A DNA stretch of 64,000 bases, taken from NCBI GenBank assembly GCA_028284905.1, contig JANQQU010000064.1, positions 124,001 through 188,000 on the forward strand, given 5' to 3'. Shown one piece after another: positions 23,037 to 47,036 of this stretch. Both the position numbers and the translations under genes were made by a program. Each line of letters begins with the position of its first letter. Within the stretch, counting starts at the first letter, position 1. Under the pieces are notes generated by a model. The model did not search any database. It was given only the letters and a program-made list of their open reading frames with translations, and was not told where the DNA came from. The DNA is from Calditrichia bacterium. GTDB taxonomy: Bacteria; Calditrichota; Calditrichia; RBG-13-44-9; J075.

Positions 23037-23421
23037 TAGCATAGGTAGTGTTAAAGAAGTAATGCTACTTCTTTTAGCTGTCATCGCGAGGCGCGTTTTG
23101 CCGAAGCGATCTCATTGTTGCATGCACTTTAGAGATTGCTTCGGCAAAAAGCGCCTCGCAATGACAGAAAGCTAATAGCATTACATATTTAACACTACCA
23201 TAACTTGAATATTAATGTTCTGTTGCCCGCCCTGAAGGGATTCCCTGGGAGCGAAACGCACGGAACATGCGAAAGTATTGCTAGTTTCTTTAATTAGGAT
23301 TTCCTGATCGCTTCAAGCATCTTAAATTTCTTTCGTTTGATGTGTGTTTTTTACAGGCACTTGAAATATTAACTATCGATTTAAATTGATTATATTTTGC
23401 ATTCCCATTGAAAGGCATTGA
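23037..23421. other. Intergenic region between menC and menE
   Basis: This 385-bp gap holds the palindromic element at 23044-23199. The remaining 220 bp are AT-rich with a GC-rich patch (23225-23265, containing GCCCGCCCTGAAGGG) that may be a remnant of another repeat. No ORF of note; menE may have its own promoter here but no clear boxes were found. Confidence 0.5.
23044..23199. repeat. MITE-like palindromic element, copy 1
   Basis: This 156-bp element starts GGTAGTG and ends CACTACC and folds on itself: GTAATGCTA pairs with TAGCATTAC, TGTCATCGCGAGGCGC pairs with GCGCCTCGCAATGACA, and TTTTGCCGAAGC with GCTTCGGCAAAA. ATA flanks both ends. A related element lies at 36411-36569. It has no coding capacity. 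TGTCATTGCGAGG-type palindromes recur in many bacterial genomes as far as I recall; I cannot confirm this here. Confidence 0.8.
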
Positions 23422-35932: not shown

Positions 35933-36349
35933 ATGAGTGATAAAATCAAAAAAAGCGAAGCGGAATGGAAAGCGCAATTAACACCGGAACAATATCGTAT
36001 TACCCGCCAAAAAGGCACGGAACGCGCTTTTACCGGGGAGTACAATGAAAATAAAGGCACTGGTAAATATCATTGTGTTTGTTGCGGCGCTGAATTGTTT
36101 AACTCTAATGAGAAGTATGATTCGGGTAGTGGTTGGCCAAGTTTTTGGGATGTTGCTGATTCCGAAAATGTCGGAGAAAACCACGATGCCAGTCATGGCA
36201 TGATTCGCACTGAAGTTGTTTGCAGTAATTGCGATGCTCACCTGGGCCATGTTTTTCCCGATGGTCCAAAACCAACCGGGCTACGTTACTGCATAAATTC
36301 TGCTTCATTGAAATTTAAGAAAAACGAAGGCAATGCAGATAAAGAATAA
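35933..36349 (+). CDS. msrB: Peptide-methionine (R)-S-oxide reductase
   Basis: MsrB repairs methionine-R-sulfoxide in oxidised proteins. The 138-residue protein has zinc-binding CxxC pairs Cys48/Cys51 and Cys97/Cys100, the core [10 protein letters not shown] and catalytic Cys120 in [10 protein letters not shown]. The catalytic residue is a normal Cys, not selenocysteine. It is in the cytoplasm (no signal peptide). An AAGGAG site precedes the ATG. Its neighbour across a palindromic element is an AhpD-like redox protein, suggesting an oxidative-stress theme, though the two genes converge. Confidence 0.95.
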
Positions 36350-36410: not shown

Positions 36411-36569
36411 GGTAGTGCTACATCGTTAATGCTGAGTGTTCTTTTCGCTGTCATCGCGAGGAGTGCAGCGACGAAGCGATCTCCCTGTAAATACTCATAG
36501 CAGAGATTGCTTCGGCAAAAAGATACCTCGCAATGACATTTCTGCTAGCATTAACCTTTTATCTCCACC
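36411..36569. mobile_element. MITE-like palindromic element, copy 2, with 8-bp direct repeats
   Basis: This 159-bp element begins GGTAGTGCTA and ends CTCCACC. Its inner arms are TGTCATCGCGAGG and CCTCGCAATGACA with GAAGCGATCTC/GAGATTGCTTC further in, the same plan as the element at 23044-23199. The exact 8-mer AATTTTTG stands at both borders (36403-36410 and 36570-36577), the pattern left by transposase-driven insertion. It carries no ORF and ends 13 bp before the stop of the AhpD-like gene. Confidence 0.75.
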
Positions 36570-36582
36570 AATTTTTGTAAAC

Positions 36583-37128
36583 CTAATCCTCGAAACTTTC
36601 CTCTAACTCAACCCCTAATCCATCTGCCAGGCGATTAACAAATGCATAATACCCGGCGACCTGATTGATATCAAGAATATCAGCATCGGCAAAACCGGCC
36701 TGGCGTAAATCTTCCACATCCTCGCGAACCATCTCCCATGGTTCGATCGTTAATTTTGCGACATAATCAAGCATTGCCCGATCGTTTGCTGCCAGCGTGG
36801 CCTGTTGATAGTCCTTCTTTAGTTGCTGCACCAAATTATCATCTTTTGTAAGCCGACGGAGGCCCGCTCCGTGATGTGCCATTCAGTAATGACATTTGTT
36901 GATACTGGAAACGACCACTGCAATCATTTCCCGCTGCGTGCGGCTGAGGCCGGATTTTCCGCGCATCAAGGTTTTATAAAACTCGAAATGCCTGGTAAGG
37001 GAAGGAGGATTGAGGCTGTGAATCTTAAGGATGTTATCGACGATACCCTCACTATTGGTAAGCTTATCGTAAAGCGCTTTCAGTTTTCCGCTGGCATCCG
37101 TTTCATTGATCATTTTAATCCAGGCCAT
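36583..37128 (-). CDS. AhpD-like peroxidase-related protein, candidate selenoprotein (in-frame TGA)
   Basis: Two abutting minus-strand frames (36883-37128 and 36583-36882) are in the same phase and split by one TGA at 36883-36885. Together they give a 181-residue AhpD/carboxymuconolactone-decarboxylase-type protein of the usual length. The join reads NKCHY-TGA-MAHHGAG; in the family this is CHYC followed by HHG, so the TGA replaces the second Cys of the CxxC redox centre, at residue 82. Ten nt after the TGA a 6-bp stem ACGGAG/CTCCGT with loop CGGGC fits a bacterial SECIS. I therefore read it as a CxxU selenoprotein that reduces peroxides. The ATG has AAGGA 7 nt upstream. A nonsense mutation is the alternative. 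Confidence 0.78.
36856..36872 (-). promoter_or_regulatory. Putative bacterial SECIS hairpin
   Basis: ACGGAG and CTCCGT pair perfectly around the 5-nt loop CGGGC. The stem starts 10 nt and the loop 16 nt after the in-frame TGA, and the loop has G in its second position, matching the known shape of bacterial SECIS elements. Confidence 0.6.
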
Positions 37129-37236
37129 GATTGATCCTTCTTGTTAGGTGAGGTGAAGAAGTGAGTGAAAATGAGCAAATGGGCAAATGGGCAAATGAAC
37201 AACTCTGAACTTTGAACGCTAAACTCTGAACTCCAT

Positions 37237-45854: not shown

Positions 45855-47036
45855 TCAGCTGGTCGCTTCAGTTCCCCACAAATGCGAATATTTATGACCG
45901 CTGCCGGTATTGAAGAGGATAACGGTTTCATCTTCTTCGATCCAGTTTTTCATGCGCAATTTCTGAAAAGCGGCCAAAGTTGCTCCCCCTTCCGGGCTGA
46001 CAAACAATCCTTCGGTTTGCCCGATCAGGTTGGCCGCATGGATCATTTCATTGTCAGAAACGGCAACAGCAGTGCCATTACTTTCCCGCAGGGTGCGTAA
46101 TATTAGGAAATCACCAACAGCGGCCGGGACGCGCAGACCATCAGCAACCGTTTTTGCATTTTGCCAGGGCTCCGCAAATTCATCGCCCTTTTTAAAAGCG
46201 CGAACCATCGGTGCGCATCCATCGGATTGAACCGTCACCATGCGCGGGCGCTTGCTGTCGATCCAGCCGAGTTTCTCCATTTCATCAAAAGCTTTCCACA
46301 TGCCGATCAAGCCGGTGCCACCACCGGTGGGATAAATAATCACATCCGGCAAGCGCCAGCCAAGTTGTTCCGCGACCTCATATCCCATGGTTTTCTTGCC
46401 TTCCAGGCGATAGGGTTCTTTTAAGGTGGAAACATCAAAACGATTATGCGTAACCAATTCATTGGCAGCAATGCGGCCACAATCGGTGATTAAACCATCG
46501 ATCAAACGAACTGTCGCGCCCAGCGCTTTACATTCGGCAATAAACGGCTGCGGTACATCTTTCGGCATAAATACGAAGGCGGGGATGCCGGCCAGTGCGG
46601 CATAGGCGCTCATTGCACCGGCAGCGTTGCCGGCGGAGGGGATGGAAAGCGCTCGCACACCTAACTCTTTTGCCCGGGAAACCGCCATCACCAGGCCACG
46701 CGCTTTAAATGACGTTGTTGGATTCATCCCCTCTTCCTTGATAAACAACCCGGAAAATTTGATACGATCTCCGAGATTACGGGCATAAATGAGCGGCGTG
46801 CAACCTTCACCCAGTGTATATTTATAGATATCTTTCCGGACCGGGAGTACTTCTTCGTAGCGCCATAAATTTTGTTCGCGGTGGGCAATATCGTCTCTGG
46901 TCACAGTTTTGCGGATTTCATCCAGATCGTAGCGAACCAGCAACGGTTTTTTACAGCTGGGGCATAAATTCCATAAGCGTTCGGATTCCAATTCCAGTTT
47001 ACAATTTGAGCATTCCAGATGTGTTACGAAATTCAT
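45855..47036 (-). CDS. thrC: Threonine synthase
   Basis: This PLP enzyme converts O-phosphohomoserine to threonine. The 393-residue protein has an N-terminal zinc-ribbon-like Cys set (Cys9, Cys12, Cys25, Cys28), PLP Lys111 in TTSFKARG, SIPSAGNAAGAMSAYAA, and the phosphate loop YPTGGGTGLIG. This is the class of threonine synthases with zinc ribbon; related PLP lyases such as threonine dehydratase lack that element. It is followed closely by the ubiA-like gene. Confidence 0.9.
   Translation of the reverse strand: MNFVTHLECSNCKLELESERLWNLCPSCKKPLLVRYDLDEIRKTVTRDDIAHREQNLWRYEEVLPVRKDIYKYTLGEGCTPLIYARNLGDRIKFSGLFIKEEGMNPTTSFKARGLVMAVSRAKELGVRALSIPSAGNAAGAMSAYAALAGIPAFVFMPKDVPQPFIAECKALGATVRLIDGLITDCGRIAANELVTHNRFDVSTLKEPYRLEGKKTMGYEVAEQLGWRLPDVIIYPTGGGTGLIGMWKAFDEMEKLGWIDSKRPRMVTVQSDGCAPMVRAFKKGDEFAEPWQNAKTVADGLRVPAAVGDFLILRTLRESNGTAVAVSDNEMIHAANLIGQTEGLFVSPEGGATLAAFQKLRMKNWIEEDETVILFNTGSGHKYSHLWGTEATS

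Follow-up and report, generated by a model that had tools for sequence, protein, structure and literature searches.

A predicted selenocysteine-containing AhpD-like protein of the TIGR01926 family encoded across an in-frame TGA in a Calditrichia bacterium

The window analysed here is a stretch of 64,000 nucleotides from the genome of a Calditrichia bacterium, which comprises 8.55 Mb in 93 contigs and in which genome-wide work took the form of targeted searches. On the minus strand of the window, a reading frame of 181 codons is open from an ATG at 37128 to a TAG at 36585–36583, with a single TGA at codon 82. Without read-through, the ORF list of the window contains two ORFs of 81 and 99 codons instead. 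The AhpD signature is E-x11-C-x2-C-x3-H, and the translation across the TGA reads E67-x11-C79-HY-U82-x3-H86, so that E67, C79, U82 and H86 all match when either Cys or selenocysteine (Sec) is allowed at the second redox-motif position, which is where the TGA falls. An earlier note on this DNA had described one TGA at 36883–36885 in the context CHY-TGA-MAHHG and a normal joined length, and the sequence and frame bear this out.

Table 1. Positions of the AhpD-like gene, its associated elements and related loci in the same genome (window coordinates unless a contig or locus is named).
Feature	Position	Strand	Remarks
AhpD-like gene, predicted selenoprotein (TIGR01926 peroxidase-related family)	36583..37128	-	181 aa with TGA read as Sec82
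In-frame TGA, predicted Sec codon U82 of C79-H-Y-U82	36883..36885	-	column compared across orthologues
Shine-Dalgarno-like GAAGGA	37135..37140	-	6 nt before ATG; read directly from sequence
Candidate bSECIS-type hairpin ACGGAG-CGGGC-CTCCGT	36856..36872	-	6-bp stem; begins 10 nt after TGA, loop 16 nt away
msrB (TIGR00357, Cys form)	35933..36349	+	convergent neighbour; context only
selA pieces	C46:4356-5474 and C28:25337-25666 (L019, L020)		cut by contig ends
SelD	L021 1501-2424		own TGA in CAG-U-ASKIGPGDL
Second TIGR01926 paralogue	L002 1501-2064 (C61:266091-266648)	-	in-frame TGA in CHY-U-RRAH; 134.8 bits

The read-through protein belongs to TIGR01926, ‘peroxidase-related enzyme’, which it matches with 159.4 bits (cut-off 81.8) over nearly its full length, residues 2–174 aligning to profile positions 1–174 of 178, and it also matches the Pfam CMD profile with 46.2 bits. 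Two relatives of solved structure, 3c1l (Mlr4105) and 2pfx, align with it near full length and through the TGA, including the active site, with 123 and 120 bits respectively; both carry Cys at the second motif position, aligned to position 82, whereas the gene here has a predicted Sec. NF041238, AhpD_rel_CFYUT (AhpD-related selenoprotein, hypothetical protein 1 of Sargasso Sea), shares the C-terminal AhpD domain and the CxxU motif, but its model spans 357 positions compared with the 181 residues of the protein described here, which falls outside that family with 60 bits against a curated cut-off of 175 bits.

Selenoproteins of this type are already catalogued. ‘AhpD-like protein, TIGR01926, CxxU’ is a listed selenoprotein family in a 2026 review (PMC13188914), another review enters AhpD-like protein as COG2128 CxxU (PMC9312934), and an ocean survey counted 299 AhpD-like 1 (COG2128, CxxU) sequences (PMC2398784). 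The family model, the CxxU position and the bSECIS-type hairpin just downstream all match these known cases, for which Cys homologues are also known, and no mechanistic difference from them was found. What differs from the listed cases is the setting, namely a large genome (8.55 Mb) that holds two paralogues and comes from a phylum that has been sparsely sampled. That the gene is a further member of the catalogued TIGR01926 CxxU family is well supported.

All four components that the earlier note had proposed looking for, selA, selB, selD and tRNA-Sec, are found in the same genome. SelB scores 349.5 bits over the joined frame on contig C46. SelA scores 531.6 bits, above its cut-off, and is truncated by the end of the same contig; its missing N-terminal part lies at the end of contig C28. 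The two pieces most likely belong to one gene that a gap in the assembly interrupts, and because it is cut by contig ends an automatic check for full-length SelA would miss it. The tRNA-Sec on contig C9 scores 73 bits, and ARAGORN assigns it the anticodon tca (UCA). SelD (388.6 bits) likewise contains an in-frame TGA and is thus itself a predicted selenoprotein, a known state of SelD.

In other genomes or MAGs, eight genes that are 44–72% identical to the gene here (L025, L026, L028, L029, L030, L033, L035 and L036) have TGA in precisely this column, and the column holds Cys (TGC or TGT) in the more distant homologues L031, L032, L034, L037 and L038. The question of whether Cys or Sec occupies the aligned position, raised in the earlier note, is thus answered: nine related genes have TGA there, and others have Cys. 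The host phylum is represented by 40 genomes in the searched set, the nearest named records in the homologue search are labelled as Acidobacteria and Pyrinomonadaceae MAGs, and a search of the genome contigs gave three related loci only. Between the Sec orthologues, dN is 0.19–0.37 both before and after the TGA, and dS, being saturated, has no estimate; low dN on both sides under saturated dS indicates that both halves of the gene are constrained, in agreement with the selection on both halves that had been suspected earlier. SelA and SelB exceed their curated cut-offs in six of the seven TGA-form genomes tested, the host genome included (G000, G001, G003, G004, G016 and G018); the seventh, G025, has SelB and only a weak SelA match. 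Among the Cys-form genomes, G013, G021 and G031 have neither protein above its cut-off, and G011 and G040 have both.

These comparisons bear directly on other explanations of the interrupted frame. A pseudogene, or a TGA introduced by sequencing or assembly error, might be suggested by a frame that is split by a stop in the raw sequence of an assembly in 93 contigs. However, the eight other genomes or MAGs, each assembled independently, have TGA at the identical codon, substitutions on both sides of it show the low dN and saturated dS described above, and the host genome contains a second paralogue whose corresponding motif also has a TGA; the sharing of the TGA column with orthologues excludes both degeneration and sequencing error for practical purposes, and this explanation is very improbable. 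None of the outcomes that the earlier note had named as counting against a selenoprotein (absence of Sec machinery, stops scattered at random in relatives, an isolated sequencing error) occurred.

It is just as improbable that the locus encodes two short proteins, the first stopping at the TGA and the second starting anew from the adjacent ATG. The window does contain TGAATG, and this ATG opens the 99-codon ORF, but of the nine orthologues three have ATG immediately downstream of the TGA, one has GTG and five have ATC, ATT or ATA; re-initiation fails as an explanation since five of the nine have no usual start codon there, and the split would moreover break up, at its CxxC motif, a domain that the Cys homologues have in one piece. 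Less probable still is that TGA serves this organism as a normal sense codon, for Trp or another amino acid. Nothing specific speaks for such decoding. Of the 44 gene-like ORFs in the window, 10 have TGA as their stop, which argues against a general reassignment, the homologous residue is Cys and not Trp, and the genome has a complete Sec system including a UCA tRNA-Sec.

Published rules for bSECIS elements cover the spacing, the loop G and the stem length, with a loop pattern N1-G-G/U-N-N2 (PMC13188914). The hairpin downstream of the TGA satisfies them with G as the second base of the loop CGGGC, a stem of 6 bp and a distance of 16 nt, although it is borderline for spacing and energy; the local 23-nt fold has −7.5 kcal/mol. 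The perfect stem, loop sequence and distances given in the earlier note were all confirmed. Its reading of the hairpin as a SECIS holds in that the published rules are satisfied and orthologues keep the structure, but the single-sequence evidence is weaker than was implied: 23% of synonymous recodings give an equal or better SECIS-type hairpin, which is not significant, and the hairpin gains significance only through its conservation in orthologues. Of seven hairpin positions, 5–7 are paired in all nine Sec genes, compared with 0–5 in five Cys genes, most of which lack the hairpin, and 88.9% of cells pair across the nine Sec genes, compared with 30–48% when the partner is slid. A two-sided change occurs at just one pair among the nine sequences. 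The Leu at codon +8, in the 3′ arm, is CTC in all nine, whereas upstream conserved Leu positions use 3–5 codons each, and the Gly in the 5′ arm is encoded by GGA or GGG only; this freezing of synonymous sites is stronger evidence for the hairpin than the pairing data. The published loop pattern recurs in most relatives, where GGN is flanked by a closing A-U or C-G pair. Rfam gave no match above the gathering score near the gene.

Taken from the sequence comparisons, the locus is very probably (about 97%) a functional AhpD-like (CMD/AhpD, TIGR01926) selenoprotein gene in which Sec would be inserted at position 82 under the guidance of SelB and the hairpin, and we strongly infer that the TGA is decoded as Sec. 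SelB carrying Sec-tRNA-Sec, directed by the hairpin right after the UGA, would place Sec at position 82, and the resulting active site would be C79-x-x-U82, next to which the glutamate (E67) and histidine (H86) typical of AhpD are retained. Most likely the protein acts as a thiol- or selenol-dependent peroxidase or disulfide reductase in peroxide defence, its activity and substrate being judged from the family only. The gene leaves selenium biology as known unchanged and its main practical value is for annotation, as gene callers are likely to give two fragments or a pseudogene in place of one intact selenoenzyme. The nine Sec orthologues and several Cys homologues also form a set for studying Sec/Cys exchange and SECIS gain or loss.

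The second TIGR01926 paralogue of the genome, L002, has a counterpart, L045, in genome G003. In L002 a candidate hairpin, TGACCTC-CGTGAA-GAGGTTA, places its loop 24 nt away from the TGA; L045 keeps a hairpin of this type (CGACCTC-CGTGCA-GAGGTCG) with one two-sided pair change. The more distant AhpD/CMD homologues L041, L048 and L051 carry TGA in the column of the Sec codon, with motifs such as CVF-U-MRAH and CPY-U-TDCH, and are probably other AhpD-like selenoproteins. A tentative and rather doubtful reading is that of a TIGR01926 selenoprotein clade in which a single genome has two Sec paralogues whose hairpins differ in position, within a small phylum with a possibly undescribed selenoproteome; if true, it would extend, to a modest degree, what is known of Sec use among AhpD-like proteins. 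A literature search for selenocysteine in Caldithrix found nothing relevant.

The convergent msrB close to the gene fits an oxidative-stress context. The orthologous loci examined do not preserve this neighbourhood and share only single neighbours with it, at L029 (SDR) and L033 (M28 peptidase). A mechanical scan of the window for similarly interrupted long frames gave about a dozen, among which the AhpD-like gene was the only candidate gene-like by its flanking peptides, apart from a frame at 45857, and the sole one compared with homologues on both sides. The frame at 45857 consists of two adjacent gene-like ORFs, one threonine synthase-like and ending at the TGA and the next UbiA-like; the other TGA-interrupted candidates were set aside on inspection, their peptides resembling antisense or out-of-frame sequence. 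A dispersed palindromic repeat, TCATTGCGAGG...GAAGCAATCTC, lies at 36440–36540, in the gap after the AhpD-like gene, and again at 23100–23165, and its pattern has 17 exact matches genome-wide compared with 0 for the reversed control.
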